Assembly: GCF_000428045.1 (NCBI RefSeq)
Contig: NZ_ATZE01000009.1
Span: 62,001-126,000, forward strand
Direction: 5' to 3'
DNA: 64,000 nucleotides
From: Sedimenticola selenatireducens DSM 17993
GTDB taxonomy: Bacteria > Pseudomonadota > Gammaproteobacteria > Chromatiales > Chromatiaceae
The translations under genes and the position numbers were made by a program. Under the pieces are notes generated by a model. It was not told where the DNA came from, made no database searches, and saw only the letters and a program-made list of their open reading frames with translations. How positions within the stretch are numbered: the stretch's first letter is position 1; each line of letters opens with the position of its first letter. Shown in pieces: positions 35,521-62,381 of the stretch.

Positions 35521-35679
35521 ATGGGCAACACGCTTTGGTTTATCAATCTGCTGAAAGATCACCCTTGGATTGGTTTTCTGATTGGCCTTGCCTTTGTCAC
35601 GGTCATGTTCGGATCAAAGAATCTGGTGATCTATTTCTACTCACGCCACAAGTCGAAACAGATCGATCAGTCAAGATGA
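35521..35679 (+). CDS. 52-residue single-helix membrane protein
   Basis: MGNTLWFINLLKDHPWIGFL starts a helix running to about residue 44, followed by a basic tail (YSRHKSKQIDQSR). The ATG at 35521 was chosen because the residues encoded further upstream look non-coding. No family recognised; the existence of the gene is plausible but not proven. Confidence 0.4.
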   Translation: MGNTLWFINLLKDHPWIGFLIGLAFVTVMFGSKNLVIYFYSRHKSKQIDQSR

Positions 35680-35716
35680 TGCCGCTCTGCTTTCCCAATT
35701 GATACTTGATGAGCTC

Positions 35717-36057
35717 CTATCCCCCCAAAAACAGCCGCTCCACCTCGGGATTTTCCAGCAATTCCTCGCCGTGACTGGCCATGGCGACCTGTCGGAGACC
35801 AACACATAACCGATGTCGGCAAACTCAAGACCCTTGGTGGCGTTCTGCTCCACCAGCACGATAGTTTTGCCATCCTGATGTTGCAGATCGTCGAGGATCT
35901 CAAACACCCTGTCGATATAGCGCGGTTCTAGCCCGATGGACGGCTCGTCCACCAGCAGCATTTCGGGACTTGCCACCGGATGGCGCCCTGATCCATTGCC
36001 GGCGTCGCGCTCCCAGGCGGGGAACTTTGCCAGTGCCTGTTCAGTGCCTTCGTGCAT
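35717..36057 (-). pseudogene. Remnant of a LivF-type ABC transporter ATPase gene
   Basis: Only the C-terminal third survives. One frame reads MLLVDEPSIGLEP, then VFEILDDL, then GKTIVLVEQNA and FADIGYVL (Walker B, D-loop, H-region-like). A frameshift near 35800 then leads to another frame reading QVAMASHGEELLENPEVERL up to the stop at 35717. This matches the end of branched-chain amino acid LivF ATPases. The Walker A region and the other liv genes are missing, so it is a decayed fragment. Confidence 0.75.
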
Positions 36058-36716: not shown

Positions 36717-37286
36717 ATGCTTGATTTCCTATATCAAACGGGCTGGGGTGCATTTACCTTAATGCTCCTGTTTCAAATTCCTTTCCTGCTTGTATTTCCC
36801 TATATCGTCTATCGGAAGTGTTTTGTTAACCCAAAACCGGGTAATACGAATCCGAGGAAAATGACGCGCCTGGAAACGGTATGGATCGTCAGCGCGATCG
36901 CGCTTTTTGTGATCGTGAATCTGTACAGCATCAGTTACATGCCGATGTCCAGAACCGCAGCGACAGAAAAAACAGCCGCGGTTATTCAGGATGTAGATGT
37001 GACCGCACGTTCCTGGAGCTACGAAATTTCCAATCGACAGTTTGAAGTTGGAAAGCCCGTTCGCTTCTCTGTAAAAAGCGTCGATACGATGCACGGTTTT
37101 ACCGTCTATCACCCGAATGGAAAAATACTCTTCAACATGATGCTGATTCCCGGATTGGAGAAGCCTTCATCACTCGTCTACACATTTACCGAACCGGGTA
37201 AATATAAGGTGCGCTGTCTGGAGTATTGCGGAATCGCCCATCACGGAATGCAAGATGAACTGACGGTCGTAAAAAGCGACGGTTAA
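36717..37286 (+). CDS. CuA-containing haem-copper oxidase/NO reductase subunit II (NorS-like)
   Basis: A 189-residue protein with two N-terminal helices (about 10-32 and 52-74) and a periplasmic cupredoxin domain. All CuA ligands are present: His126, Cys167, Cys171, His175 and Met178 (RCLEYCGIAHHGM). It would accept electrons from a cytochrome c. The short length without a fused cytochrome c and the coupling to an unusual subunit I fit the NorS subunit of sNOR enzymes better than a standard CoxB (inference). Confidence 0.82.
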   Translation: MLDFLYQTGWGAFTLMLLFQIPFLLVFPYIVYRKCFVNPKPGNTNPRKMTRLETVWIVSAIALFVIVNLYSISYMPMSRTAATEKTAAVIQDVDVTARSWSYEISNRQFEVGKPVRFSVKSVDTMHGFTVYHPNGKILFNMMLIPGLEKPSSLVYTFTEPGKYKVRCLEYCGIAHHGMQDELTVVKSDG

Positions 37287-37315: not shown

Positions 37316-38818
37316 ATGCTAACTGCAACAATAAGACGTACCCCAATCCTGGGGAAAATGTTTGATGTCGATGAGAGCACGGGGCTGTCCGATATCAATA
37401 CCTGGCCGGCCATGATGATTATGACATCGTTTGTCTGGTTGATCGTGGCGATTCTGCTGGGTGCGCTGATGCCGGTTATTCAGATGGCGGAATTGGATGC
37501 CAATCTCTTCTATTCAGCAATCACGCTGCATGGTGCGGCATTGGCTTTCCCGTTCCTGTTTCAGTTCATGATGGGCATCAGTCTGCACCGGTCGGGTGGC
37601 TGTATGGGTAAGTCGGCGTCAGGAAAACTGACCACGTTGATTTACCTCTGTATGAATGGCGGTGCCGTGCTATTAACCCTGGCGGTGTTGGGCGGATTGA
37701 AAATCACCTACACCGTTATGTATCCGCTACCCCTGGTGGGTGCGCAGATGGGCGCGTGGAGCATGAACATGGTGGTGCTCGGGTTTACCGGTATCGCACT
37801 GGTTCTGACTTCTATTATCTTCCTCTATCCATTACAGATCATCCGCATGTCCTTCTTTGGCAAGCAGCGTGAAGAGTTGTTGCTGTCGGCGCGCACCCTT
37901 AAGGACCCCGGCATGCTCGGCATGGTGATGTCGGTCATGATCCTGCTTGTAACGGGGACACCGTTGATGATTGTTGCAGGTGCCTTGTTGCTGGCGCTTT
38001 ATGGTATCGTTCCGCTGGAGGCGATAGCCTGGGCCTCCGAGCCCGTGGTTTTTCAGTATGTGTTCTATATTTTTGCACACAATCTGATGGAAGCCATGGC
38101 CATCATGGTGATCAGTGCCGTTTACGCCACATTGCCGCTCTACCTGGCGGATGGAACCCGCAAACTGTACAGTGACAAGCTTGCCAATCTGGCTCTTTGG
38201 ATACTGTTGGTGACCTCGGTTACCTCCTTCTTCCATCACTTCTATACCACTAACCCGGGGCTTCCTTCCGCGCTAGCCTATCACGGTAATTTCATGAGTT
38301 GGGCAACCGGTGTTGGTGCCGCGCTTTCGACCTTTACTATTCTGGCGACTATCTGGAAACATGGCATAAAACCGGAACCTGGCTTGATGGCTATCCTGGC
38401 CGGCTTTGTTGTCTATATCCTGGATGGTGTCAATGCCATGGTGGCGGGAAATATCGCTGTTTCGTATCAGGTACACGGTACCCTCTGGGTGGGTGGTCAT
38501 GCGATGTCGGTTCTGATCGCCATGTGTCTGATGTGGATGGGTGTTCTATATCACCACTATCCGGTAATCACCGGCAAAAAGCTGGATAAAAAACTCGGCA
38601 GTCGTTTTGTAACGCTCTATTTTATTGGTGCGGTTGGCCTGCTGTACTCTTTTGCGGCAGGTGGTGCCATGGGTATGCCAAGACGCTTTGCCGATTGGGA
38701 TGCTGGTCCTGATGGTTGGATGATGGTAGGCATTGCTATCCTGATATTTGGTCTTTTCCTGATAGCCGGATTTGTCACCTACATGCAGAACTTCATGAGG
38801 TCGAGATCCATTTCATGA
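37316..38818 (+). CDS. Haem-copper oxidase superfamily subunit I, sNOR (NorY)-like
   Basis: A 500-residue membrane protein with about 12 helices. The helix II haem ligand is His72 (TLHGAALAF). CuB ligands are His255 (FAHNLMEAM), His307 and His308 (SFFHHFY). The high-spin haem ligand is His395 (WVGGHAM). Two catalytic positions are unusual: the oxygen-reductase Tyr four residues after the first CuB His is Glu259, and the second His of the HxH haem pair is Met397. Loss of the Tyr is typical of nitric oxide reductases derived from oxygen reductases, such as the sNOR (NorSY) of ammonia oxidisers. So 2NO to N2O is a plausible reaction, but oxygen reduction is not excluded. Confidence 0.8.
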   Translation: MLTATIRRTPILGKMFDVDESTGLSDINTWPAMMIMTSFVWLIVAILLGALMPVIQMAELDANLFYSAITLHGAALAFPFLFQFMMGISLHRSGGCMGKSASGKLTTLIYLCMNGGAVLLTLAVLGGLKITYTVMYPLPLVGAQMGAWSMNMVVLGFTGIALVLTSIIFLYPLQIIRMSFFGKQREELLLSARTLKDPGMLGMVMSVMILLVTGTPLMIVAGALLLALYGIVPLEAIAWASEPVVFQYVFYIFAHNLMEAMAIMVISAVYATLPLYLADGTRKLYSDKLANLALWILLVTSVTSFFHHFYTTNPGLPSALAYHGNFMSWATGVGAALSTFTILATIWKHGIKPEPGLMAILAGFVVYILDGVNAMVAGNIAVSYQVHGTLWVGGHAMSVLIAMCLMWMGVLYHHYPVITGKKLDKKLGSRFVTLYFIGAVGLLYSFAAGGAMGMPRRFADWDAGPDGWMMVGIAILIFGLFLIAGFVTYMQNFMRSRSIS

Positions 38819-38980
38819 GGTTAATCGTGTTACCCAGGTGTAGGGGTGCGACACAATAGTGTGCCGCGCTTGTCGAGCGGGCAGGTAGATACCTCCCGGA
38901 GCCTGCCCGCTTCGACATTTAACGCTATATATTCGACAACCGGCCAACAGAGTCGGATGTGAAGATTGAGGTGGGATGGC

Positions 38981-39838
38981 ATGATTAAACAGCTGGTTAA
39001 TCTATTTAAGCTGAGAATAGGCTTTATCATGATGCTGACAGCGCTCGTGGCGATGGCGGCCACGCCCGGGCGTTCGGTCACTTTGACTGAAATGATTGTT
39101 CTGGCGCTCACCGTGCTTGTCGCGGCCGCCAGTGCCGGTGCGTTCAATCAGTACTACGAGACCGATCTCGATGCACTGATGGCGCGCACCAGAAATCGAC
39201 CTTTTGTGACTGGTGTGTTAACCAAGGGGCCATTCTGGTTGATGGTGATCAATGGGTTGCTGTTCGTGAGCGTGGCGATTGCTGCTGTTGTTCTGAACGG
39301 CATGGCGGCACTCTACATTTTTCTCGGCGCCTTTTTTTATGCGGTGGTCTACACCGTCTGGTTAAAGCGGCGTACCTGGATGAATATTGTGATTGGCGGA
39401 GCCTCGGGCAGTTTTGCCGTGCTGGCTGGAGCCGCTGCCGTTGATCCGGTACTGACACCGGTTCCCATACAGCTGGCACTGGTCCTGTTTTTCTGGACAC
39501 CTTCCCATTTCTGGAGCCTGGCGATTGCTCAAAACAAGGATTATGCCGCCGCCGGCGTGCCCATGCTGCCTGCCATAGCGGGCAACGAGTATGCAGCCAA
39601 GGTCGTACTGGGGAATACGCTGATCCTGGTCGGCATTTCCATAATGCCCTATTTTTACGGTATGGGATGGCTGTATCTTCTGGGGGCTGTGAGTGGTGGG
39701 GGGTATTTTCTCTATCGAAACCTGAAAATGATTCAGGATGCGGGAAGGAAAAATGCCATGGCGAGCTTCTTTGCTTCACTGATACAGCTCTCGTTATTAT
39801 TGATAGGGACGGTACTCGATGTGCTGATTTTGTCGTAA
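38981..39838 (+). CDS. ctaB: Protohaem IX farnesyltransferase (haem O synthase)
   Basis: A 285-residue UbiA-family prenyltransferase with about eight to nine helices. The first acidic motif is NQYYETDLDALMARTRNRP (about residues 56-74), with further motifs YTVWLKRRTWMNIVIG and FFWTPSHFWSLAI. It adds a farnesyl group to haem B. Its position between the subunit I gene and a copper ATPase suggests that the upstream oxidase carries haem O or A. ATG 38981 follows GAGGTGGG; an in-frame TTG lies 15 bases upstream. Confidence 0.94.
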   Translation: MIKQLVNLFKLRIGFIMMLTALVAMAATPGRSVTLTEMIVLALTVLVAAASAGAFNQYYETDLDALMARTRNRPFVTGVLTKGPFWLMVINGLLFVSVAIAAVVLNGMAALYIFLGAFFYAVVYTVWLKRRTWMNIVIGGASGSFAVLAGAAAVDPVLTPVPIQLALVLFFWTPSHFWSLAIAQNKDYAAAGVPMLPAIAGNEYAAKVVLGNTLILVGISIMPYFYGMGWLYLLGAVSGGGYFLYRNLKMIQDAGRKNAMASFFASLIQLSLLLIGTVLDVLILS

Positions 39839-39880: not shown

Positions 39881-42274
39881 ATGGATTGCAAACTGTGTGG
39901 TTTGCCAACACCCAATCCCCCCGTTCAGCAGGATGGCCATGTCTTCTGTTGCTATGGGTGCAGCACGGTCTACGAACACTTCGGTGAGGCGGTGTTGGAT
40001 TCGTATAAACGGATTGAAGAGGCTGGGCCTGCTTTACCTCCTGAAGGTAAAGAGGCCTTTCTTCGAATCGAAGGGATGCACTGTGCTTCTTGCGAATTCA
40101 TGCTCAAAAAACTGGGAGAGCGGGCCAAGGGCGTGCTCGATGTAACCGCCTGCTATGCAACATCCACCGCCAAGGTGACTTTTGATCCGGATATCATTGA
40201 TGAGTCTGATCTACCCCGGGTGTTGAGTCAGGCCGGTTACAGGGCGGGTTTCAGATCCGAGGTTCTCGAGCAGCGAGACAATGATTTGTCACTTCTCAGG
40301 CTGCTCACGGGGGTGAGTCTGTCTGCTATCGTCATGATGCTGTATCTGGCATTTTTTTACCCGAGCAATCTTGGGTTGGTGCCCGCGGAAGACCTTGAAT
40401 CAATGCGTTGGCTGGCATTCTATGCGGCGCCACGTGTGATGTTTCTCCTAACCACGGTTCTGATCTTCTACGTCGGTTTTCCCATACTGCGTGGAGCATG
40501 GATCGGGGTCAGGGCCGGCGCCTTGAATATGGATAACCTGCTTGCCATTGCTGTACTGGCCGCCTACGGGTACAGCATCCATCAGATGTGGATCGGATCC
40601 CATGATCTCTATTTCGATGTCGCCGCAGTTATTGTGACTGTGGTAACGGCCGGAAGATTCTTTGAAAAAAATGCCAAGCTCGATGCTACAGCGGAACTTT
40701 CCCGGATAATTTCCGCCTGGAATCCGAAGATAAGGGTGATTCAGGATGAGGGTTTTGTTGAAAAGAGTATGGATGCGCTTCACCCGGGTGACCGCTTTGT
40801 TGTAACACAGGGGGAGTTCATACCCGTTAACGGAACCATATTCCAGGGCGTTGGCGCGCTGGATGAGTCGCTCATGACAGGCGAGCCCCATCCGGTGACG
40901 CGAGGCGCAGGCGCAGAGGTTTTGGGTGGGACAACCCTGGTTGAGGGTGAACTGACTGTGACGGTAGGTGAGTCAGTTGAGAGTCAGATGGAGGCATTGA
41001 CCCGTATTCTCTGGCGTGCCCAGAGTACGTCGGATGGTCTGCTTGGAATGGCCGACCGATTCGCCCGGGTGTTCGTGCCCCTGGTTCTGGTCCTGGCGGC
41101 CGGAATTACGTCAGGCTTGTTGCTGAATGGTGCTTCGACCGGTACAGCCCTGCTGGCCGGGTTGGCCACGCTGATTGTCTCCTGCCCCTGCACATTTGGA
41201 TTGGCTGTACCGCTGACTACCGCTGCTGCCGTCAGCACGGCTCTCAAGCACGGCATCATCATCGGTCGCTCGGCGGCGTACGAAAAATCCGCGCACATAA
41301 AATCCATTGCACTTGATAAGACAGGCACCCTGTCGACGGGAAAAATGCAGGTTACAGCGGTTTACGGTCCACCTGAGGTTGAATGGTATTCCGCCGCCGT
41401 TGAACGCTTTTCACAACACCCGGTTGCCAATGCCATCGCGCGACTGGATGCCAGGTATGAGGCAATCAACCCGGTTATTCATCCCGGTAAGGGGGCCGAG
41501 GCTTTGGTTGATGGGAAACGGGTGGTGGTCGGTAGCCAGACACTTTTCAGATTGTTGAATTGGACCATTCCGGATCAGCTTCAAGCCCAGGTCAAGGGTG
41601 CACCCGCAGGTGGCGTGGTGTCCTATGTTGGCTGGGCAGGTATGGCGATAGGCGCTATCGTGACGGGTGACCAGCCTCGTCCCGGTTGGAAAAAATTTGT
41701 TGCTGAATTGCGGCAACAGTATCGGGTTGTCATGCTAACCGGTGCGGAGCGGACGGATGGGTATGAGTCCGCCGTGGATATGCATCATGCGGGCGTACCC
41801 CCTGAAACCAAGGCAGTCATTGTCAGGCAGCTGCGTGAGGAGGGGGGCGTTGTCATGATTGGCGACGGGAGTAATGATGGGCCGGCGTTGGCGGCAGCGA
41901 ACCTGGGTATCGCTTTCGGTGTGCCCACATCATTGGCAGCCGATGCCGCTGATCTGATTATTCCGGGTGACAGGCTGGATCGCATTACCATTGCACTCGA
42001 CCTGTTGGGCAGTGTACGTCGCCGGGTGCACCAGAACATAGGCTGGGCACTATTGTATAATGCCATAGCAATTCCTCTGGCTTTGTCGGGCATGTTGAAT
42101 CCGCTATTTGCGGCACTGGCGATGGCATCAAGCAGTATTCTGGTGGTGTGGAACTCGTCCCGATCACTGGAACAGGATAGCTGGCATGTGCTACAGGATG
42201 AGGCTTGTCCGTCTGGACCTGATGATTGGTCCAGGCTGGGGAGTAAAGTCCCTCTTGAAACAGCAGGGACCTGA
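39881..42274 (+). CDS. Copper-translocating P1B-type ATPase
   Basis: A 797-residue pump. The N-terminal Cys cluster is CKLCGLP ... FCCYGC, the HMA domain has GMHCASCEFML, and the membrane part has the ion-site CPC in VSCPCTFGLAV. The phosphorylation motif is DKTGTLSTG and the hinge is the atypical IGDGSNDGPAL, where the usual VND is SND. It resembles CcoI/FixI but is a separate paralogue, about 6 kb from ccoI. Its likely role is copper delivery for the CuA and CuB sites of the adjacent oxidase. Confidence 0.9.
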   Translation: MDCKLCGLPTPNPPVQQDGHVFCCYGCSTVYEHFGEAVLDSYKRIEEAGPALPPEGKEAFLRIEGMHCASCEFMLKKLGERAKGVLDVTACYATSTAKVTFDPDIIDESDLPRVLSQAGYRAGFRSEVLEQRDNDLSLLRLLTGVSLSAIVMMLYLAFFYPSNLGLVPAEDLESMRWLAFYAAPRVMFLLTTVLIFYVGFPILRGAWIGVRAGALNMDNLLAIAVLAAYGYSIHQMWIGSHDLYFDVAAVIVTVVTAGRFFEKNAKLDATAELSRIISAWNPKIRVIQDEGFVEKSMDALHPGDRFVVTQGEFIPVNGTIFQGVGALDESLMTGEPHPVTRGAGAEVLGGTTLVEGELTVTVGESVESQMEALTRILWRAQSTSDGLLGMADRFARVFVPLVLVLAAGITSGLLLNGASTGTALLAGLATLIVSCPCTFGLAVPLTTAAAVSTALKHGIIIGRSAAYEKSAHIKSIALDKTGTLSTGKMQVTAVYGPPEVEWYSAAVERFSQHPVANAIARLDARYEAINPVIHPGKGAEALVDGKRVVVGSQTLFRLLNWTIPDQLQAQVKGAPAGGVVSYVGWAGMAIGAIVTGDQPRPGWKKFVAELRQQYRVVMLTGAERTDGYESAVDMHHAGVPPETKAVIVRQLREEGGVVMIGDGSNDGPALAAANLGIAFGVPTSLAADAADLIIPGDRLDRITIALDLLGSVRRRVHQNIGWALLYNAIAIPLALSGMLNPLFAALAMASSSILVVWNSSRSLEQDSWHVLQDEACPSGPDDWSRLGSKVPLETAGT

Positions 42275-43634: not shown

Positions 43635-44432
43635 CTAAATGGTTTTATCCTTGGTTATCAGCGCATAGGCTGAGTGATTGTGTATCGACTCGAAATTTTC
43701 TGACTCCACGCTATATGCTGAAATACGTTTCTCGGCGTTCAGTCGGTTTGCAATATCCCGCACGATATCTTCAACAAATTTGGGATTGTCATACGCCTTC
43801 TCCGTGACATATTTTTCATCGGGTCGTTTGAGGACGGAAAACAGATCGCAGGAAGCTTCTCCCTCGATCAACTCAATCAGCTCCTCAATCCAGATGAATC
43901 CGCCAATACGCGCAGTCACCGTGATCATGGATCGCTGGTTGTGGGCGCCATATTCCGAAATGCCCTTCGAGCAGGGGCAGAGGCTGGTGGCTGGAACCGC
44001 AACCCTGATACTTACAGCGAGTTCATTCTTATTCAATTCGCCAATAAAACTGATGTCATAGTCCATAAGACTTTTTACCCCGGAAACCGGTGCCGACTTT
44101 TCGATAAAGTAGGGGAAATGCATCTCTACATGGCTGGTCTCCGCCTCCAGCCGGTCGTTGATTTCAAACAGCATTTCGTGAAAGGAGCGCACGGTGATCT
44201 CTTTTTCATGTTCGTTGATAATTTCAATAAAGCGTGACATGTGCGTACCCTTGAAATGCTGGGGCAGGCTGACATAGAGGCTGAAGTCAGCAATTGTGCG
44301 CTGTTCACCACCGCTTCTGTCTTTCACCAGGGCGGGGTGACGAATGCCTTTGACACCCACTTTGTTGATGGGTATCTGTCGTTTGTCGGCTCTGTTTTGT
44401 ACATCTTCCAGGGCGAGGGCAAGGTTGTTCAT
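43635..44432 (-). CDS. folE2: GTP cyclohydrolase FolE2 (type IB)
   Basis: A 265-residue T-fold enzyme. It has the metal-site Cys in [32 protein letters not shown] and [13 protein letters not shown]. It converts GTP to 7,8-dihydroneopterin triphosphate, the first step of folate synthesis, and its archaeal relative MptA starts methanopterin synthesis. Next to formate dehydrogenase and within 17 kb of H4MPT genes, it may feed pterin to H4MPT (inference). The type IB enzyme is often used when zinc is scarce. Confidence 0.93.
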
Positions 44433-44526
44433 TCAGATTCTCCAGTGTTGAGAGCGGATTACCAGCCATGAGCCAGGCGCATGGCTCATGGGTCGCTCAT
44501 CGGCGTCACGCAACAGGGTGCCCGGT

Positions 44527-47271
44527 TCATGCCGGTTCAACTTGAACAGCACAAAATTTGAATTCGGGTATTTTGCCATCCGGGTCCAGCGCCTCATTGG
44601 TTAACAGGTTTGCTGCTGCTTCGTAATAACAGAAAGGCAGAAATATCTGTCCCGGTTTGAGTCCGCGGTCGCTCCGTGCCTGCGTGATCACTTCTCCGCG
44701 TCTTGATCGCAAACGGATGGATTGTCCAGCATGCAAGCCTATCTGTTTCAGGTGATCGGGATGCAGCATGGCGACTGCTTGCGGTTCCAGGTTGTTAAGT
44801 ACGCTTGCCCTGCGGGTCATCGCCCCGGTATGCCAGTGCTCCAGTTGTCTGCCGGTGATCAGAATGTTCGGATACTCCTTGTCAGGTAGTTCATCGGCCT
44901 GGCTGAAGGTGGCTGGAACCAACGCGGCCTTCCCGCCTGTGCGTGGGAACTGTTCCTGGAAGATGACTGGCTCCCCCGGGTCACCCTCCTGGCTACAGGG
45001 ATAAGTGACCGCGCTCTCGGCCTCGACACGTTCCCAGGTTATACCGGCAATACTGGGCATGGCCTGGCGCATCTCATTGAATACATCACGCGGACCCGCG
45101 TAGTTCCAGTCCAGGTTCAACCGACTGGCCATCGACAGGATTATATCCAGATCCTGTCGCGCCTCTCCCGGGGGGGTGATGGCTTGTCGGCCCATCTGTA
45201 CGCGTCTGTCTGTATTGGTAAAGGTACCGGTTTTTTCCGGAAAGGCCGAGGCGGGAAGAATGACATCCGCATAGTGTGCGGTCTCGGTCATGAAGATGTC
45301 CTGAACCACCAGATGCTTCAGGGAAGCCAATGCCTTTCTCGCATGATTCAGATTGGGGTCGGACATGGCGGGATTCTCTCCCATGATGTACATGCCGTTT
45401 ATTTTTCCGTCATGTATGGCATGCATAATCTCAACTACGGTTAGCCCCGGATCAGGATCAAGCGCAGTTTTCCAAAGCGCCTCAAATTTCTCCCGTACCC
45501 CGATATCGTCGACACGTTGATAATCGGGGTAAACCATAGGTATCAAGCCAACATCTGAGGCACCCTGCACATTGTTCTGACCTCGCAGCGGGTGCAGGCC
45601 GCAACCGGGCCGGCCAATCTGTCCGGTAATCAATGCCAGGTTAATCAAACAGCGCGCATTATCAGTGCCATGCACATGCTGCGACACACCCATGCCCCAA
45701 AATATCATTGAGCCTTTTGAGCTGGCATAGATTCGGGCTATCTCATAGAGCGTATCGGCGGGTATGCCGCAGATCGGCGCCATTCTTTCCGGTGCAAACT
45801 CTTCCAGATGCCGCTTTAATGTTTCGTAGCCCTCTGTGCGTTGCTCAATAAATGTCTTGTCTACCAGATCCAGTTGAATGACTGCGTGCATGATGGCATT
45901 TAACATCGCCACATCGGTGTCGGGATTGAACTGCAAGACATGATCGGCATAACGAGCAATATCGGTTTTTCGCGGGTCCATCACGATGAGGGTTTTTCCC
46001 GCTCTGGCGGCATTCTTGAAAAAGGTGGCGGCAACGGGATGGTTGGAGGTGGGATTGGAGCCGATCAGCACAATCACTTCACATAAATCCACGTCCGAGA
46101 CGGGATTGGTCACGGCACCTGAGCCGACCATCTGTAGCAGCGCCGCAACGGAAGAGGCGTGGCACAGGCGTGTACAGTGATCGATGTTGTTCGTATGTAA
46201 GCCGGTGCGGATCAGTTTTTGAAACAGGTAGGCCTCTTCGTTAGAGCCCTTGGCCGATCCGAACCCGGCCAGGCCTGCGGGACCCTGACTATCCAGAATC
46301 TCCTTCAACCCGTCGGCGGCGTACTGCAATGCCTCTTCCCAGCTCGCCTCGCGAAAGTCGCGTAATGGATGCTCATAATCCATATCCATTTCAACATGCT
46401 TTGGGGCATCGGTTTTGCGGATCAGTGGTTTGGTCAGGCGCTGGCGGTGATTCACATAGTCAAATCCATAACGCCCCTTGACACAGAGGCGGCCGCGGTT
46501 GGCCGGTCCATCGCGTCCCTCGACAAACTGTATACGGTTGTCTTTTATATGATAAGTGAGCTGACAGCCTACGCCACAATAGGGACAGACCGAGTGGACC
46601 TGCCGGTCAATAGCCTGCTTGCCCGCATCGCCGGCCGGCATCAGTGCACCGGTGGGGCAGGCCTGTACACACTCTCCGCAGCCGACACAGCTTGATTGAC
46701 CCATCGGATCGTCCATGTCAAATATGATCTGTGCCTGGCTTCCCCGGCCGGAAAAACCGATCACATCATTGGCCTGTTCCTCCCGGCAGGCGCGCAGACA
46801 ACGGCCACATTGAATACAGGCATCCAGGCTTACGCTTATGGCGGGATGAGATAGATCCTGTTCGGGTTGTCGGCGTGGCGGAAACCGGCGCTCGGTGACA
46901 TGCAGTTTTTTGCACCAGTGGTCCAGTTCGCTGTTGGGGGTGAGTGAGGGTGTTTTCGGAATATCCGATTGCAGCAGCTCCAGAACCATCTTTTGTGCCG
47001 TTGTCGCACGAAGGGAGTTGCTTTCCACCGACATGCCTTCACTGGGATAACGACAGCAGGATGGCGCCAGCGTCCGCTCACCGGAAATCTCTACCACGCA
47101 GGCCCGGCAATTCCCGTCGGCACGCAGGGTGTCGGTAAAACAGAGATGCGGTATCTCCACGTCATGCCGTTGGGCGACCTGCAGAATGGTTTCATTGGGC
47201 TGAGCAGTGACGGTCACACCATCCAGTGTGAACGAGATTGTGGTTCCATCGCCTTTCAGATTCGAGGCCAT
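44527..47271 (-). CDS. fdhA: NAD-dependent formate dehydrogenase, molybdopterin catalytic subunit
   Basis: A 914-residue protein. The N-terminal NuoG-like [2Fe-2S] domain has Cys44, 55, 58 and 72. Two 4Fe-4S motifs follow (CIQCGRCLRAC, CVGCGECVQACP), then the molybdopterin part with its own 4Fe-4S cluster (CPYCGVGC ... CVKG). The metal ligand is Cys370 in HCTRLCHASS, so this is a cysteine, not selenocysteine, enzyme. It oxidises formate to CO2 in the cytoplasm. It abuts the NuoEF-type subunit gene with no gap. Confidence 0.92.
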   Translation of the reverse strand: MASNLKGDGTTISFTLDGVTVTAQPNETILQVAQRHDVEIPHLCFTDTLRADGNCRACVVEISGERTLAPSCCRYPSEGMSVESNSLRATTAQKMVLELLQSDIPKTPSLTPNSELDHWCKKLHVTERRFPPRRQPEQDLSHPAISVSLDACIQCGRCLRACREEQANDVIGFSGRGSQAQIIFDMDDPMGQSSCVGCGECVQACPTGALMPAGDAGKQAIDRQVHSVCPYCGVGCQLTYHIKDNRIQFVEGRDGPANRGRLCVKGRYGFDYVNHRQRLTKPLIRKTDAPKHVEMDMDYEHPLRDFREASWEEALQYAADGLKEILDSQGPAGLAGFGSAKGSNEEAYLFQKLIRTGLHTNNIDHCTRLCHASSVAALLQMVGSGAVTNPVSDVDLCEVIVLIGSNPTSNHPVAATFFKNAARAGKTLIVMDPRKTDIARYADHVLQFNPDTDVAMLNAIMHAVIQLDLVDKTFIEQRTEGYETLKRHLEEFAPERMAPICGIPADTLYEIARIYASSKGSMIFWGMGVSQHVHGTDNARCLINLALITGQIGRPGCGLHPLRGQNNVQGASDVGLIPMVYPDYQRVDDIGVREKFEALWKTALDPDPGLTVVEIMHAIHDGKINGMYIMGENPAMSDPNLNHARKALASLKHLVVQDIFMTETAHYADVILPASAFPEKTGTFTNTDRRVQMGRQAITPPGEARQDLDIILSMASRLNLDWNYAGPRDVFNEMRQAMPSIAGITWERVEAESAVTYPCSQEGDPGEPVIFQEQFPRTGGKAALVPATFSQADELPDKEYPNILITGRQLEHWHTGAMTRRASVLNNLEPQAVAMLHPDHLKQIGLHAGQSIRLRSRRGEVITQARSDRGLKPGQIFLPFCYYEAAANLLTNEALDPDGKIPEFKFCAVQVEPA

Positions 47272-48951
47272 TTATGCAAACTCCTCTGGAAAATACTTCA
47301 GTGCACAGCGGAGTGGATTTGGAGCGGCCTGGCCAAGGCCGCAGATGGAGGCGTCCGACATCACCTGGCAGAGCTCCTGTAACAGGGGCTGGTCCCATTC
47401 CTGTTCACCCATCAGGATGGCCGCTTTGCTTGTGCCCACACGACAGGGCGTGCATTGACCACAGGATTCGTGGGCGAAGAACTGCATAGCATTCAATGCC
47501 TGTTCACGCACGCTGTCCTGGTCGGACAGGACAATAATCGCCGCCGATCCGATGAAGCATCCATATTCATTTAACGTATCGAAGTCGAGCGGGACATTGC
47601 TCAGGGAAGCCGGCAGTATGCCGCCCGAGGCACCGCCCGGGAAATAGGCTTTTAGTTGGTGTCCGTCCTGCATGCCTTCACAATATTCATCAATGAGTTG
47701 CTGCAGGGTGATCCCGGCAGGCGCAAGATACATACCGGGTCTTTTTACTCGACCACTGACGGAAAAACTGCGCAACCCCTGTCGGCCATTACGACCATGT
47801 GCACTGAACCAGTCAGCCCCTTTCTCCAGCAACTCACGGACCCAGTAGAGGGTCTCCATGTTGTGTTCCAGTGTGGGTAATCCGAACAAGCCTTTCTCGG
47901 CAATATACGGCGGGCGCAACCGGGGAATACCCCGCTTGCCCTCTATGGATTCGATCATGGCGGACTCTTCACCGCAGATGTAGGCCCCGGCTCCCCGCCG
48001 TAGTTCGATTTCTGGAAGGTGACATGGTGGATCAAGATTGAGTGCTCGCAATTCACGTTGCAGTAGTGTACGAATACCGGCGTACTCGTCGCGCAGATAG
48101 ATGTAAATCTTTTCAATACCCACTACAGTGGCGGCAATCAGCATTCCTTCCAGAAAATGATGCGGATCGCGCTCCAGGTAATACCTGTCCTTGAATGTGC
48201 CCGGTTCTCCTTCATCTATATTGACAGCCATCAGACGCGGGGCAGCAAAGCCCCGCACAATGCGCCATTTCCTTCCGGCAGGAAAACCCGCGCCGCCAAG
48301 GCCACGCAGGTTTGCGTTCTCCAGTGTCTCAATGATTGATTCGCAGGTTGCTTCATCACCTTCATTGACCAGGTCTTTGAGTCGCTGATAGCCGCCCGAT
48401 TCAAGATAAGATGAATAGGTGAGTGCTGCCTTGGGTATGGGTTCGTCATGGATACCCTGATCAACTGTCTTGTAGACGCGATCGGGGGTGGCAAACGGGA
48501 TCGGATTGGTACCCACGACAGCTACAGGCGCGTTCTCACATCGTCCGATACAGGGAACCCGTTGCAGGCGAACAGCCTCACCCAGACCAGCCTGTAATTC
48601 AGTAATGAGGGTTTCGGCACCTGCCAGGTTACAGCTGATGGAGTCACATACCCGAATCGTCAGTGCCGGTGGCTGGGGGGCATCATCCTTGATGATATTA
48701 AAGTGATGATAAAAACTGGCCACTTCATACACTTCACCGGTCGAAAGCCGAAGTATCTCCGCCAGTGCGGTCAATATGCCGCTATCCAGGTAGCCCCGGT
48801 CATCCTGAATACGATGCAAGTATTCAATCAGCCGATCACGACTGGTGTTTCCATCATCCAGGTACTGCTTTACTGCCGTCAGGTCTGCAGGTGCGGCCTG
48901 CCGACCTCTTCTGCGGGGTTTCCTGCCTGTTGTTTTTACTTTCAACAACAT
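47272..48951 (-). CDS. fdhB: Formate dehydrogenase diaphorase subunit (NuoE-NuoF fusion)
   Basis: A 559-residue fusion. The NuoE-like thioredoxin-fold part (about 20-175) has the [2Fe-2S] Cys residues in RVCDSISCNLAG and PCIGRCENAP. The NuoF-like part (about 185-559) binds FMN and NAD (GLGGAGFPAGRKW, VNIDEGEPGTFKDR, RRGAGAYICGEESAM) and has a 4Fe-4S motif SCGQCTPCRVG. It transfers electrons from the catalytic subunit to NAD+. In many FDHs these are two genes (fdsG and fdsB). No fdsC/D maturation gene is adjacent. Confidence 0.92.
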   Translation of the reverse strand: MLLKVKTTGRKPRRRGRQAAPADLTAVKQYLDDGNTSRDRLIEYLHRIQDDRGYLDSGILTALAEILRLSTGEVYEVASFYHHFNIIKDDAPQPPALTIRVCDSISCNLAGAETLITELQAGLGEAVRLQRVPCIGRCENAPVAVVGTNPIPFATPDRVYKTVDQGIHDEPIPKAALTYSSYLESGGYQRLKDLVNEGDEATCESIIETLENANLRGLGGAGFPAGRKWRIVRGFAAPRLMAVNIDEGEPGTFKDRYYLERDPHHFLEGMLIAATVVGIEKIYIYLRDEYAGIRTLLQRELRALNLDPPCHLPEIELRRGAGAYICGEESAMIESIEGKRGIPRLRPPYIAEKGLFGLPTLEHNMETLYWVRELLEKGADWFSAHGRNGRQGLRSFSVSGRVKRPGMYLAPAGITLQQLIDEYCEGMQDGHQLKAYFPGGASGGILPASLSNVPLDFDTLNEYGCFIGSAAIIVLSDQDSVREQALNAMQFFAHESCGQCTPCRVGTSKAAILMGEQEWDQPLLQELCQVMSDASICGLGQAAPNPLRCALKYFPEEFA

Positions 48952-49026: not shown

Positions 49027-49581
49027 TTATTCGGATGGTTGATTGATGGCATTCATCAGACTCTCGGCCAAGGCTTGGGGGGGGAGTCCGTGGGGTAGAA
49101 CCGTCATCAGTTTTCCCTCTCGGTCTATCACGTAAAGGCTCGCGGTATGATCAATGGTGTAATTGGGCGTTTCACCCTTGCCTACGAACTGGAACCGAGC
49201 GTGATAGCGCCCGGCAATTTCCGCAATGTCTTCTGCATCACCCGTCAGACCAATCAGCCGCGGATGAAAATATTGCGTGTACTTACTTAGAAACACAGGG
49301 GTATCCCTGTCCGGGTCTACAGATATAAAGAGTGGATCGACTTGTTGCGCAGCGTCGCCGATGCTGTCCAGGGCACTGCTGATGGTTGCCAGTGCTGTCG
49401 GGCAGATGTCGGGACAGAAGCTGTATCCAAATGAAAGTATGACAATATTGCCGCGCGAATCGGCCAGCGAATAAGGCTTGCCGTTGTGTGCGGTCAGGCT
49501 GAAATCACCACCCAATCCGAATGCCGTGCCGCCGGTGATTAGTAGTAGTGCTATGAATGAGTACTTAATTGATCTGCGCAT
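49027..49581 (-). CDS. SCO1/SenC-family copper chaperone or thiol-disulfide protein
   Basis: A 184-residue periplasmic protein with a signal peptide or anchor (about 5-22). The copper-binding pair is Cys56 and Cys60 in SFCPDICPTA, and the third ligand is His145 in YTIDHTASLYVID. SCO proteins load copper into CuA sites and other periplasmic copper enzymes. It is divergent from mtoX across a 325-base spacer; SCO genes are regular neighbours of mtoX. A second SCO domain occurs in the fusion gene downstream of mtoX. Confidence 0.9.
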   Translation of the reverse strand: MRRSIKYSFIALLLITGGTAFGLGGDFSLTAHNGKPYSLADSRGNIVILSFGYSFCPDICPTALATISSALDSIGDAAQQVDPLFISVDPDRDTPVFLSKYTQYFHPRLIGLTGDAEDIAEIAGRYHARFQFVGKGETPNYTIDHTASLYVIDREGKLMTVLPHGLPPQALAESLMNAINQPSE

Positions 49582-49665
49582 GAAGTTCTCCAGATTATCC
49601 CCCTACAATGCAGCTTTAGTGCCAACTTATGCAGGCCTGTCCTGCCTGATCAGAAACCCGATAAG

Positions 49666-49686
49666 TGTTGCAGACACTGTGCAACA
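49666..49686. promoter_or_regulatory. Palindrome upstream of the mtoX promoter (possible activator site)
   Basis: TGTTGCA-GACACTG-TGCAACA is a perfect 7-bp inverted repeat with a 7-base spacer. It is about 100 bases upstream of the sigma-54-like element, the usual distance for an enhancer-binding-protein site. No sigma-54 activator gene is in the window. Confidence 0.45.
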
Positions 49687-49768
49687 GCGTGTGTATGTGT
49701 AACAGCGACGGCGCACCGGACAACTCTGCATGCGCATTGAACGCTTGTAAAAACTGATATTTGTCAGT

Positions 49769-49784
49769 TTGGCATCTATCTTGC
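49769..49784 (+). promoter_or_regulatory. Sigma-54-type promoter for mtoX
   Basis: TTGGCATCTATCTTGC has the obligatory GG and GC dinucleotides exactly 10 bases apart and matches TGGCA-N6-TTGC closely. It lies about 120 bases before the mtoX start. Sigma-54 control would require an ATP-driven activator. Confidence 0.6.
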
Positions 49785-49906
49785 GGTATGTCCGCACACC
49801 GCTGGAGATCGCGGTGATGATCAGGCTGGCGAAGTATTCCCCAACTGCTTGGGGCTTTAACCCAGCAAACAACCAAATAGAGTGAAGAGTTGGAGGAAAC
49901 CACCTT

Positions 49907-51283
49907 ATGCAAAAGCAACACAAAGGGACATTCAGTCGTATTCTTATGGCTGCCTCGTTGGCAGCAACGACACTGTTTACTGCGATGCCTGCCAGGACAG
50001 TCGCTGATGAAACCTGCCAGTCACCCTACATGGCGAAGATTGTCGGCCAGGAGGATTTTGTCTATGTCTGGACTCTGGGTGTCGATGGACTGGGGGATGG
50101 TCAGGACAAACTGGTCACGGTTGACGTGAATCCGAAATCCATGAATTACGGTAAGGTCATCAATAGCCTCTCTGTCGGGGGGCGCAACGAGGCCCATCAC
50201 TCGGGATTTACCGATGACCGTCGCTATCTCTGGGCCGGAGGTCTGGATACCAATAAGCTGTTTATATTTGATGTTCATACAGATCCGGCCAAACCTCAGC
50301 TTCACAAGGTGGTTACAGACTTTGTCGCGAAGAGTGGGGGAGTTGTTGGCCCCCACACAACCTATGCCTTGCCGGGCCGTATGATGATCACCGGGCTGTC
50401 GAACAATCAGGATCACGGGGGGCGTACAGCATTGGTTGAATACACCAATGAAGGTGAATACGTGGCAACGCACTGGATTCCAACAGATCAAAACCTGCAG
50501 GGCGCCAAGAAGGGTGGTAATTTTGCCGATGGTTATGGCTATGATATTCGTGCATTGCCACGTCGCAATGTGATGGTGACTTCGTCATTTACCGGCTGGT
50601 CAAACTATATGATGGACTTTGGCAAGATGCTGCAGGACAAAGAGGCCATGAAGCGTTTTGGTAATACGGTAGTGGTATGGGATCTGCACACGCGCAAGCC
50701 CAAAAAGGTACTCGATGTCCCTGGAGCGCCGTTGGAAGTCCGCTGTGCATGGGAGTCCGAGAATAACTGGTGTCTGACAACGACTGCGCTGACTTCCAAA
50801 ATCTGGATGATCTATGAGGATGAAACGGGCGAATGGCAGGCCAAGGAAATTGCCGATGTGGGTGATCCTTCCAAGGTGCCTCTTCCGGTTGATATCTCCT
50901 TGCTGGCTGATGACTCCGGTCTGTGGGTTAACACCTTTATGGATGGTACCAGTCGCTTTTTTGATCTGAGTGATCCGCACAATCCCAAGCAGACCTATGA
51001 AAAGAAGATAGCGGCACAGGTCAATATGGTGTCGGAGAGTTGGGATGGAAAACGCGCTTACTATACCAGTTCCTTGCTGGCTAACTGGGATAAAAAGGGG
51101 CAGGACAATGAGCAGTATTTCAAGGCCTATCACTGGGACGGCAAACAGTTGACCGAGCAGTTCTCCATAGACTTTGTAAAAGAGAAATTGGGGCGCGCGC
51201 ATCAGATGCGTTTCGGTGCCTACTCGCTATATGCCAATAACAGAAGTACAGAAAAGGGTCAGTCTGCCGTCGCTGCAAAATAG
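49907..51283 (+). CDS. mtoX: Periplasmic SBP56-family methanethiol oxidase
   Basis: A 458-residue selenium-binding-protein-56 family member. A signal peptide (about 1-33, ending near ARTVADE) indicates a periplasmic enzyme. Conserved segments include GRNEAHHSGF, GGVVGPHTTYALPG, DGYGYDIRALPRRNVMVTSSF and RCAWESENNWCLTTTAL; the His residues fit the copper sites proposed for MtoX. The family enzyme from Hyphomicrobium oxidises methanethiol to formaldehyde, H2S and H2O2. Its neighbours (SCO, MauG, thioredoxin) match known mtoX clusters, and downstream C1 genes would handle the formaldehyde. GGAGGA precedes the ATG. Other SBP56 roles remain possible. Confidence 0.88.
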   Translation: MQKQHKGTFSRILMAASLAATTLFTAMPARTVADETCQSPYMAKIVGQEDFVYVWTLGVDGLGDGQDKLVTVDVNPKSMNYGKVINSLSVGGRNEAHHSGFTDDRRYLWAGGLDTNKLFIFDVHTDPAKPQLHKVVTDFVAKSGGVVGPHTTYALPGRMMITGLSNNQDHGGRTALVEYTNEGEYVATHWIPTDQNLQGAKKGGNFADGYGYDIRALPRRNVMVTSSFTGWSNYMMDFGKMLQDKEAMKRFGNTVVVWDLHTRKPKKVLDVPGAPLEVRCAWESENNWCLTTTALTSKIWMIYEDETGEWQAKEIADVGDPSKVPLPVDISLLADDSGLWVNTFMDGTSRFFDLSDPHNPKQTYEKKIAAQVNMVSESWDGKRAYYTSSLLANWDKKGQDNEQYFKAYHWDGKQLTEQFSIDFVKEKLGRAHQMRFGAYSLYANNRSTEKGQSAVAAK

Positions 51284-51299
51284 CAGGTTTTTCCCGACA

Positions 51300-51325
51300 C
51301 CCCTGCCGGGTTCCACCGGCAGGGG
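51300..51325 (+). promoter_or_regulatory. Strong hairpin between mtoX and the SCO-dihaem gene
   Basis: CCCCTGCCGG and CCGGCAGGGG form a perfect 10-bp stem with loop GTTCCA, 17 bases after mtoX. It has no T-run, so it may be an mRNA-stabilising or partial-readthrough element that sets unequal expression of the two genes. Confidence 0.55.
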
Positions 51326-51385
51326 ATTCCTGCCCTCTTACCCCGGAGGGCATTTTTTAATCTCTGGATGTGCGGAGTATTCTGT

Positions 51386-56267: not shown

Positions 56268-56885
56268 CTACTTACACGTAAGAATTTGTTGGATATTATT
56301 GATCTGTTTCGCAAGGGCAGTGACAGAATCGACGTCCATCTTTTTCAGAATGCTGGCGCGATGGGATTCCACGGTGCGTGGGCTGAGTGCAAGTTCTCGG
56401 GCAATGATTTTGTTGCTCTTCCCATCCAGCAAGTGAGTCAGTGTTTGTCTTTCACGAGGTGTCAAAAGACTGAGTCTTGATCTTAACTTATCGTCTTCGG
56501 CGTGCAGTAGACGCTGTTGTCGATCTATTTCAAGTGCCTCGTGAATTCGTTGCAGCATGACATGATTGCGAAAAGGCTTCTCGATAAAGTCGATCGCATT
56601 ACGGCGCACCATTTTTACCGCCATTGCAATATCACCATGGGCCGACATGGCGATCAGGGGCAGGTTGATTTTTCTCTCCAGCAACACCTGCTGTAGCTGA
56701 ATTCCATCCATACCCGGCAGACAGATGTCTGTGATGAGACAGCCTGGGATCTCGTTGCTGTAGCTGGAGAGAAAATCATCAGCCGTTGCAAAGCGTTCGG
56801 CAGTCAGGCCGACCGACTCCACCAATGTCACCAGGGCATCCCGTACCGCAGGGTCGTCATCAATGATAAATACCCGTTGAATCAT
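56268..56885 (-). CDS. FixJ/LuxR-family response regulator
   Basis: A 205-residue regulator. The receiver domain (about 3-118) has Asp53 in CLITDICLPGMDG and the conserved Lys in FIEKPF. The LuxR helix-turn-helix (about 135-200) has LTPRERQTLTHLLDGKSNKI and LSPRTVESHRASIL. It is the partner of the kinase 8 bases upstream. Lying between the mtoX block and the H4MPT genes, the pair may regulate one or both (inference). Confidence 0.92.
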   Translation of the reverse strand: MIQRVFIIDDDPAVRDALVTLVESVGLTAERFATADDFLSSYSNEIPGCLITDICLPGMDGIQLQQVLLERKINLPLIAMSAHGDIAMAVKMVRRNAIDFIEKPFRNHVMLQRIHEALEIDRQQRLLHAEDDKLRSRLSLLTPRERQTLTHLLDGKSNKIIARELALSPRTVESHRASILKKMDVDSVTALAKQINNIQQILTCK

Positions 56886-56893
56886 TATACGTC

Positions 56894-58504
56894 CTATACC
56901 CTGCAGGGCAGGGTGAGTGAGAACAGACTGCCGGGATCTGCCGGTTGATACCGGAGTCTGCCCCCGTGCGCCTCGGCAATGCTGTGACTCAGGGCCAATC
57001 CGATACCCAGGCCTTGCTCTTTAGTCGTAATAAATGGGGTAAACAGATTGGGACGTATTTTGTCGGGAACACCGCCCGCATAGTCACGGATCATGATAGT
57101 GACATCAGAATCGCCCGCCATGATGTCGATAGATAACTTTCTGGGATTATCGGGGTTCAGAACAGTGGCCTGGATGGCATTGGTGATCAGGTTGAGTATG
57201 ACCTGTTCTATCTGTACGCGATCGACCCAGATGTCGGGCAGTGGATCATCATGTGTCACATTGATGATTAATCCTTGCCGACGTCTTTCCGGGTCAATGA
57301 ATTCAAGCATGTTTTCTATCAGTGACAATGCCTGATTAGCCTGCGGCTTCGGTGTCTTCTTGCGTACAAAGTCACGCAAACGTTGCAGAATGCCGTTGGC
57401 GCGCTCAGTCTGACAGACGATCTTTTGCAGGATCTGATCGACTTTAGTCGGATCCTTGCCATAAGGACGTGCATTCAGGAGAACGGCTGATTCAGCATAA
57501 CTGGATATAGCACAGAGCGGCTGGTTTAGTTCATGCGCCAGCCCGGTTGCCAGTTCACCAATGGTGCTCAGACGGCAGACATGGGCCAGTTCTTCATGCT
57601 GGCGGCGCATCTTATCTTCGGACTGTTTTCGATCGTCAATATCCCGGGTAATGGCCAGCAGTGCGGTGACTTTACCCGTATTATCCCAAAGTGGCGCGGC
57701 ATGAGTTTCGAGCCAGCGGTGCGCGCCGCTGATTCCCGTCACTTCAAATTCCATGCATCCGGGATTTCCAGCAAAGACCTCCTGGGTGAGTACCTGATAG
57801 GCTTCGTGATACTCACTGTTCAGGAACTCATAGACCGACCGACCAATCACTTCAGTGGAGTGAGTGGCATTCAGCAGGACAAGCCCAGCGGGGTTCATCT
57901 CCAGGATTGTACCGTACCGGTCCTGCAGTTTGACGCACTCGGGTTCGGATTCAATAATGGTTTGGAGACGATTGCGCTGTTCCTCCATCTGGTAACTCAT
58001 CTGCTTACGTTCTTCAATATCCCGTGTGATCGCGAGAAGCGCTTTGATATCACCCTGGTCATTGCGTAAAGGTACTGCATGTGTTTCAAGCCAGCGACGG
58101 CGTCCTTCAAAAGTAATCAGTTCAAACTCCATGCACTCGCTGTTACCCAAAAATACACTGTCAGTCAGTTTCTGATAGGCTTGATGATATTCTGGCGCAA
58201 TAACGCTATAAACCGATTGACCAACAATGGTTGCCGGAGTATCGGTTTCCAGAAGCGATAGTCCGGTGGCATTAATGCGCACGATGGTGCCGTCCGCGTT
58301 CTGCAGTTTGACGCACTCAGGCGCTGAATCGAACATGGTTCTGAACAGTTCTGCCTGTTCACTCAGCTGTTCATGCATTTCACTGCAGCGCTTGCGTGCA
58401 GCAACCAGCTTCTGTCTGACCAGGGTATTATGATTTTGTAACCAGAACAGCCTCGCCAGGAGGGGAAAAAGAATAAGGCAGCCAATCAGAAGGTTAGATC
58501 CCAT
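56894..58504 (-). CDS. Double-PAS sensor histidine kinase (FixL/DctB-type)
   Basis: A 536-residue kinase. It has one N-terminal membrane helix (about 3-21), two tandem PAS-PAC domains (about 50-170 and 178-295) and a HisKA domain with His324 in TGLAHELNQPL. The ATPase domain ends with NLITNAIQAT, DYAGGVP and EQGLGIGLALSH. The two PAS domains look like an internal duplication (PECVKLQ, then YHQAYQ or YHEAYQ, then MEFE, then RRWLETHA or HRWLETHA). No haem-binding FixL His is evident, so the ligand is unknown. It is encoded just before its FixJ-like partner. Confidence 0.92.
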   Translation of the reverse strand: MGSNLLIGCLILFPLLARLFWLQNHNTLVRQKLVAARKRCSEMHEQLSEQAELFRTMFDSAPECVKLQNADGTIVRINATGLSLLETDTPATIVGQSVYSVIAPEYHQAYQKLTDSVFLGNSECMEFELITFEGRRRWLETHAVPLRNDQGDIKALLAITRDIEERKQMSYQMEEQRNRLQTIIESEPECVKLQDRYGTILEMNPAGLVLLNATHSTEVIGRSVYEFLNSEYHEAYQVLTQEVFAGNPGCMEFEVTGISGAHRWLETHAAPLWDNTGKVTALLAITRDIDDRKQSEDKMRRQHEELAHVCRLSTIGELATGLAHELNQPLCAISSYAESAVLLNARPYGKDPTKVDQILQKIVCQTERANGILQRLRDFVRKKTPKPQANQALSLIENMLEFIDPERRRQGLIINVTHDDPLPDIWVDRVQIEQVILNLITNAIQATVLNPDNPRKLSIDIMAGDSDVTIMIRDYAGGVPDKIRPNLFTPFITTKEQGLGIGLALSHSIAEAHGGRLRYQPADPGSLFSLTLPCRV

Positions 58505-60230: not shown

Positions 60231-60373
60231 TTTACTAATTGATTGGACTCACCAAGGCAAAAGCTATGCCGGGATGGGCGGGGGTAGCGTTGGGCGCCAC
60301 TGTGGCCTGCTGCAAAGCGCCATGGGGTGTCTGATTGTCATGGGTGCGCCGTAGGGTCGTGACACAGTGACTC

Positions 60374-61477: not shown

Positions 61478-61480
61478 CGT

Positions 61481-62380: not shown

Positions 62381-62381
62381 G

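Follow-up and report, generated by a model that had tools for sequence, protein, structure and literature searches.

A CuA-linked family of heme-copper subunits with Glu at the cross-linked Tyr position and Met at a low-spin heme His position, a candidate NO reductase

Gene content of the locus

The window analysed here is the whole stretch of 64,000 nucleotides from Sedimenticola selenatireducens DSM 17993 (contig NZ_ATZE01000009.1, positions 62,001 to 126,000). Its positions 37316-38818 on the plus strand form an open reading frame for a protein of 500 amino acids, which matches Pfam COX1 at 4.3e-44, while all of its NCBIfam matches remain far under their cut-offs (CtaD_CoxA, 86.8 of 670.75 bits). 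The protein and its relatives are referred to as the EM family, after the two residues Glu259 and Met397. The following genes of the window are relevant here:

36717..37286, plus strand: CuA subunit II, NorS-like, 189 aa (CuA motif; NCBIfam CoxB 2.8e-16, below cut-off)
37316..38818, plus strand: heme-copper subunit I with Glu259 and Met397 (EM family), 500 aa (Pfam COX1, alignments, model, trees)
38966..39838, plus strand: heme O synthase, CtaB (UbiA 5.7e-47; cyoE_ctaB TIGR01473 over cut-off)
39881..42274, plus strand: heavy-metal, probably copper, P1B ATPase (TIGR01525 over cut-off; TIGR01511 for copper, 358.7 of 397 bits)
49907..51283, plus strand: SBP56 / methanethiol oxidase, MtoX (PF05694)
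56268..56885, minus strand: FixJ-like response regulator (Pfam Response_reg/GerE; putative regulatory role)
56894..58504, minus strand: double-PAS sensor kinase (Pfam PAS/HisKA/HATPase; putative regulatory role)

An earlier sequence-only reading of this DNA had named a CuA subunit II and a heme O synthase beside subunit I, and both assignments were borne out, the latter by its UbiA and TIGR01473 matches. Subunit II keeps the CuA motif CLEYCGIAHHGM, with C-x3-C-x3-H-x2-M and MHGF present. A scan of genome contigs yielded 31 EM loci, and in all of them subunit II is encoded upstream of subunit I and retains the full CuA motif. In 25 of the 31 loci, a CtaB-like heme O synthase is encoded near the EM gene; in most betaproteobacterial loci this copy is divergent (33-37% identity) and oppositely oriented, hence CtaB looks recruited more than once. 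An orthologue of the P1B ATPase (47-81% identity) is found downstream in 25/31 loci as well; of the remaining six, the contigs of L028, L040, L042 and L048 end too early, and L022 and L043 have none in the available sequence. The EM family travels as a cassette of CuA subunit II, EM gene, in most cases heme O synthase, and a probable copper P-type ATPase. A gene resembling the iron-loading NorQD was not noticed among the conserved neighbours of this cassette.

Homologues of the FixJ-like regulator and the PAS kinase, which in the window lie about 17 kb from the EM gene, occur within about 6 kb of it in 23/31 and 22/31 loci, respectively, and may control the cassette. Inspection by eye upstream of position 36717 gave no clear FNR/DNR box. 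In the window, a cbb3 operon (its genes named in part by eye) precedes the EM gene by about 3 kb, and a SCO gene is about 10 kb away; in L024, L029 and L032, the distance to a SCO gene downstream is about 3 kb. Just before the cassette, a short, remnant-like fragment of an ABC-transporter ATPase (branched-chain type by eye) occupies positions 35671-36057 on the minus strand. Further downstream, positions 43635-48951 and 58513-63491 hold C1 genes for formate dehydrogenase and tetrahydromethanopterin-linked formaldehyde oxidation (by eye, partly Pfam folE2 and Mpt_N), and neighbours of the AdhC type (formaldehyde/GSNO dehydrogenase, named by eye) are present in nine loci. Genes linked to EM include the methanethiol oxidase gene and those for formaldehyde/formate, instead of nir/nor, an arrangement that counts against an NO reductase role.

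Active-site residues of subunit I

The residues under discussion are encoded as follows, all on the plus strand:

37529..37531: His72 codon, first low-spin heme ligand (aligned His in all families)
38078..38080: His255 codon, CuB ligand (alignment)
38090..38092: Glu259 codon (GAA), cross-linked Tyr position (alignment, orthologue comparison)
38234..38239: His307-His308 codons, CuB ligands (alignment)
38498..38500: His395 codon, high-spin heme ligand (alignment)
38504..38506: Met397 codon (ATG), low-spin heme His position (alignment, orthologue comparison)

EM subunit I was aligned by MAFFT with 29 other heme-copper subunits from the fetched genomes (11 A, 2 B, 4 sNOR, 3 eNOR, 4 cbb3, 2 cNOR and 3 qNOR-like), whose family labels were assigned in this analysis by motif and length and with the help of Table A4 of PMC8756737. 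The columns of His72, His255, His307 and His395 hold His in 29/29 references, and that of His308 in 26/29, with Asn in the three qNOR-like rows. The four CuB and high-spin heme ligands proposed in the sequence-only reading (His255, 307, 308 and 395) are thus placed on canonical ligand columns, and its residue numbers were all correct. It had also been right to put Glu259 at the position of the cross-linked Tyr: the residue in this column is Tyr for A and B, Gly for cbb3, Asn for sNOR, Gln for eNOR and Glu for both cNOR and qNOR-like subunits. Likewise, Met397 falls on the low-spin heme column, which is occupied by His in 29/29 references. PMC3475470 presents six metal-binding His residues as the heme-copper signature; EM subunit I retains five of the six, the sixth being Met397, and belongs to the heme-copper oxidase (HCO) superfamily by fold and homology despite the missing His. 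A replacement of Met397 by another conserved His was considered as well: His91, His349, His387, His413 and His414 are invariant and without assigned metal, and none of them aligns to the Met397 column, so that such a substitute is not predicted on the sequence evidence.

Tyr270, Ser/Thr338 and Thr/Ser341 are conserved in EM and match the K-channel columns of the two B-type rows, two of which are also kept in the sNOR rows. His91 and Cys96 (codons 37586-37603, after helix 2) are invariant in EM and absent from the other aligned HCO families. A separate observation concerns the qNOR-like subunits L096, L097 and L100 (from G440, G434 and G441), in which HN takes the place of HH at the B-metal ligands (GISHNFYWN); we take this to be reminiscent of NO dismutase.

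The sequence-only reading had left it open whether the Met change is family-wide. It is universal in the gene's own family: across an alignment of 30 rows, which takes in 29 of the 31 loci and spans 58-94% identity to the window protein, neither Glu259 nor Met397 varies. Among the fetched loci themselves, 30/31 show both residues, L040 with both motifs included, and the exception, L048, breaks off ahead of the sites; three of the loci (L020, L021 and L049) stem from the same genomes as congeners from the genus search. Three further members (L005, L006 and L118) have both residues, too. As comparison with four congeneric orthologues gave dN/dS values of 0.029-0.060, the Glu/Met change is attributable neither to chance nor to error, and sequencing error or gene decay could be ruled out by this constraint together with the recurrence of the same residues in the fetched loci.

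Predicted structure

A search of PDB sequences with EM subunit I retrieved no close solved relative (best 1.7e-08). An AlphaFold model based on the 30-row alignment (pLDDT 85.2, pTM 0.88) displays 12 long helices and, in Foldseek and VIA-align comparisons, matches heme-copper enzymes of several kinds (ba3, aa3, bo3, cbb3, cNOR) across residues 1-500 with Z of about 34. Judged by this model, the HCO fold of subunit I is secure. The cNOR structures 4xyd and 3o0r match at Z 31-33 and A-type oxidases slightly higher, up to 34.9; hence, the fold does not favour an NO reductase or separate the functions.

Relation to sNOR and other families

For comparison with the nearest family, 11 sNOR-type subunits were gathered (L089, L093-L095, L104-L110). 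All 11 have HxxxN and keep the second His (GHFH/AHFH), in line with Table A4 of PMC8756737, which lists Asn for sNOR, Glu for cNOR/qNOR, Gln for eNOR and Asp for gNOR at the active site; the Met change is absent from each of them. Among 399 Burkholderiales genomes, eight carry an sNOR-type gene (1e-40), and two of these eight, G747 and G507, contain PF02461 (AmoA/PmoA family) genes in three copies and one copy, respectively. Both are therefore taken as ammonia oxidisers, although this Pfam family by itself does not distinguish AMO from methane monooxygenase. A search for AMO-family genes in G767, G434, G441 and G443 gave no match, even in its controls, and says little alone. Three of these genomes (G434, G441 and G443) possess both an sNOR-type gene and an EM gene.

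In two IQ-TREE analyses, a branch with 100/100 support sets the EM sequences apart from all others; its stem measures 1.4-1.7 changes per column, comparable in length to the branches of named HCO families. EM is grouped with sNOR at 93.1/95 (SH-aLRT/UFB) in one tree and 96/88 (UFB/SH-aLRT) in the other, and the second tree recovers sNOR and EM each as a single clade (100/100). AU testing of other groupings gave p = 0.141 for B+eNOR, 0.064 for A and 0.045 for cNOR/qNOR; the last of these is not found in the trees, and the constrained tree is thereby weakly rejected. Since the B+eNOR and A groupings are not rejected by the AU test and long branches meet here, the placement beside sNOR is not firm. 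Independent support comes from subunit II, which among the subunits compared is nearest to NorS (seven NorS, E 1.1e-35 to 8e-25), ahead of the partners of B and eNOR (4e-15 to 7e-11) and those of A. From these comparisons, EM most likely represents a separate clade that is sister to sNOR.

The sequence-only reading had assigned the gene to the sNOR (NorSY) type. What stands of this is the relationship, both subunits being nearest to sNOR; the identity as such does not, as EM has Glu versus Asn and Met versus His in 11/11 sNORs. Plain sNOR identity was rejected on these residues, the two AmoA/PmoA-bearing genomes included. The alignment with sNORs and A- and B-type oxidases, by which the assignment was to be checked, places neither a Tyr nor a second His in EM, with no named Nitrosomonas or Nitrosococcus NorY among its rows. 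Membership of EM in cNOR was rejected on account of the CuA subunit.

Distribution and hosts

The EM clade is uncommon. In the phylum sample, the gene was detected in 1/398 genomes (cut-off 1e-60), namely the window's own. The Burkholderiales sample contains it in 1/399 genomes, the centre genome itself, after four weak matches were dropped as one sNOR (L089) and three A-type subunits (L090-L092), and the Alphaproteobacteria sample in 2/385, one being the centre genome, with three weak C-terminal matches left out. Within the genus Sedimenticola, five of nine genomes have the gene, the window's included. Other named hosts are Sulfuritalea/Rhodocyclaceae, Burkholderiales, Ca. Desulfobacillus denitrificans, Magnetovibrio and Hyphomicrobiales MAGs. 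A plasmid collection gave 356 matching records, all under 60% identity.

Proteins of PF02239 (d1-heme NirS/NirN/NirF family) occur at high score in 21/21 genomes tested, so NO is probably produced in EM hosts. As three congeneric non-carriers are among these genomes, NirS-family presence does not discriminate carriers. The window's genome additionally encodes cNorB-like proteins, one cbb3 and two aa3-type oxidases, and cNorB is present in G432 too. Two cNorB copies of the window's genome (G000 C6:155429-156718 and C37:485-1774) have the same COX1 score and protein sequence, which points either to a duplication of recent date or to redundancy in the assembly. Three carriers (G433, G441 and G442) were seen to have an eNOR-type gene, and COX1 score and length make one likely in 11/13 carrier genomes compared. 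With carriers holding cNorB, eNOR-type or sNOR genes, NO reduction is not a gap filled by the EM gene alone.

One host deserves separate mention. Ca. Desulfobacillus denitrificans is presented in PMC8402940 as lacking norBC and expressing nirS and nosZ, with cbb3 oxidases and norVW considered instead. Its genome (G442, AP021857.1) contains an EM gene (L039) along with an eNOR-type gene (L099), and the latter alone could close the NO reductase gap. About 3 kb from this eNOR-type gene, a short heme-copper-like protein is encoded (L099:610-2004); proteins of this kind, of about 465-475 aa and with weak COX1 score, include also L057 (G000:C35:154701-155909).

Linkage to methanethiol oxidase

The methanethiol oxidase region of the window (49027-53852) comprises SBP56, SCO1/SenC, a fused SCO1-MauG protein and a thioredoxin-like protein, the last named by eye. 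SBP56 is the family of copper-dependent methanethiol oxidases, for which PMC5739008 reports O2 dependence in the cases studied. It is found in 5/5 Sedimenticola carriers and in 0/3 nearly complete non-carriers, the incomplete non-carrier G004 being left out, and furthermore in 3/13 other carriers, mostly MAGs of unstated completeness. In six of the eight SBP56-bearing genomes (G000, G003, G008, G435, G437 and G439), SBP56 lies about 4-11 kb from the EM gene on the same contig, and homologues were also seen within 6 kb of it in L025 and L047. In Sedimenticola, the three cases resemble a single inherited synteny, hence the independent count is small. Moreover, G005 has SBP56 on other contigs although the EM contig would be long enough, which argues against tight linkage; the contig of G007 is not long enough to decide. 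SBP56 is often genomically linked to the EM gene, and from this gene arrangement a functional link may be suspected.

Proposed function and alternative explanations

The reading preferred here, at a probability of roughly 0.55, is that EM, from a lineage next to sNOR, constitutes a two-subunit NO reductase that is fed by CuA, holds Cu at its B site and ligates the low-spin heme by His and Met. The sequence-only reading had favoured an NO reductase over an oxygen reductase, and with the Tyr lost, a NorS-like CuA subunit and denitrifier hosts this is still the best-supported prediction from sequence. The cross-linked Tyr provides oxygen reductases with an extra electron and proton, so that the usual O-O cleavage is unavailable without it. 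Given CuA, a B site made up entirely of His and the metal ATPase encoded in the cassette, the B-site metal is expected to be Cu and the substrate NO. In PMC3475470, Tyr at this position marks oxidases, and Glu, Gln, Asp or Asn is found there in NORs. For sNOR, the role as NO reductase is itself disputed, the literature being divided over NO versus O2 (PMC6967387), and therefore the same doubt carries over to EM.

In the proposed mechanism, electrons from a periplasmic cytochrome c or cupredoxin would reach CuA of subunit II, move on to a low-spin heme putatively held by His72 and Met397, and continue to the site of high-spin heme (His395) and CuB (His255, 307 and 308). There, Glu259 in place of the cross-linked Tyr would supply protons for the reaction 2 NO + 2e- + 2H+ -> N2O + H2O. 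The B-site copper would be delivered by the adjacent P1B ATPase, and heme O or one of its derivatives may serve as the catalytic heme, since heme O synthase adjoins. Via the K-channel-like set of Tyr270, Ser/Thr338 and Thr/Ser341, protons may be carried from the cytoplasm, which would make the enzyme electrogenic. As sixth ligand, Met397 would raise the heme potential; it might also not bind the heme iron. A bolder version, which we hold only tentatively, sees in EM an undescribed HCO family that was the first to abandon the bis-His low-spin heme, i.e. a CuA-fed NO reductase with a raised-potential His72/Met397 heme and a Glu acquired independently of cNOR, perhaps wired to methanethiol/C1 oxidation in order to dump organosulfur electrons on NO.

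Whether the family already has a name is a question of its own. The names eNOR, sNOR, gNOR and nNOR come from one survey, and the nNOR family was reportedly published by Murali et al. in 2024. As cited in PMC11388526, nNOR is among the proposed B-related NOR families, and that EM is this nNOR family appears doubtful, yet it is the strongest of the alternatives. In the open-access literature searched, no description of a Met-ligated HCO or of a Glu/Met motif was recognised, which is weak evidence of absence. The EM lineage is undescribed or at least unlabelled; it could be nNOR, and the name is left open.

Somewhat less probable, and unlikely overall, is a terminal oxygen reductase that dispenses with the cross-linked Tyr and perhaps tolerates thiols or sulfide, or is adapted to a donor of high potential. 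Such an enzyme would be in keeping with the CuA subunit, the K-channel-like residues shared with B-type rows, the position after the cbb3 operon, the frequent linkage to an O2-dependent methanethiol oxidase and the first rank of oxidases in the Foldseek/VIA comparison; it would, however, have to do without the usual O-O cleavage chemistry, and in a genome already equipped with two aa3-type oxidases and one cbb3 oxidase. There is little to recommend a role centred on organosulfur/C1 metabolism, in which electrons from methanethiol or formaldehyde oxidation are passed to NO or O2, or a by-product is detoxified: the co-occurrence with SBP56 in Sedimenticola carriers and its proximity in most SBP56-bearing genomes, L025 and L047 speak for it, but 10/13 other carriers do without SBP56, that of G005 is on other contigs, the three Sedimenticola cases appear to be a single inherited arrangement, and the known methanethiol oxidase uses O2 itself. 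Least probable of all is an ordinary sNOR with Glu and Met as lineage noise, because both residues are invariant in EM, all 11 sNORs have Asn and His, the two clades are separate and three genomes hold both genes, even though sNOR is the nearest family for both subunits and shares the CuA motif type CLEYCGxxHHxM.

If EM is the CuA-fed NO reductase proposed here, it adds a likely enzyme of NO/N2O cycling that Pfam names only as COX1 and for which NCBIfam matches stay below cut-off, with one such gene, next to an eNOR-type gene, in a genome published without NO reductase. A His-to-Met change fixed by nature in a whole family offers, furthermore, a ready-made test of how low-spin heme ligands and potential set the reaction.

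Comparison with known systems

With sNOR (NorSY), EM shares the two-subunit composition, a NorS-like CuA subunit with CxEYCGxxHHxM, the three CuB His and a subunit I of about 470-500 aa. In contrast, sNOR has Asn at the Tyr position and the low-spin His, where EM has Glu and Met. For sNOR, PMC4940428 gives the gene order norSY-senC-orf1; in EM, senC is not adjacent and ctaB and the P1B ATPase are found instead. eNOR is likewise a CuA-containing, B-related NO reductase and its genes occur in some EM genomes, but it displays Gln at the Tyr position (GHSSQQ), keeps the low-spin His, is about 560 aa long and forms a clade with B oxidases. The HxxxE active-site motif is shared with cNOR/qNOR (NorB/NorZ), to whose Glu Glu259 aligns; these enzymes keep HxH and use a cytochrome c subunit (NorC) or a fused quinol domain, whereas EM has a CuA cupredoxin subunit, and the common Glu is probably convergent. 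For gNOR, the comparison covers the active-site residue listed in Table A4 of PMC8756737, which is Asp, where EM has Glu259. A- and B-type oxygen reductases have in common with EM the 12-helix fold, the CuA subunit, three CuB His, the heme a3/b3 His and K-channel-like Tyr/Thr; the cross-linked Tyr is theirs, however, and EM lacks it and carries Met at the low-spin heme. Hence, the EM heme may be held in a way unseen among the relatives compared here. The transmembrane b-type heme b558 of cytochrome bd has His/Met ligation and, its fold being unrelated to that of EM, serves as a precedent for the ligand pair only.
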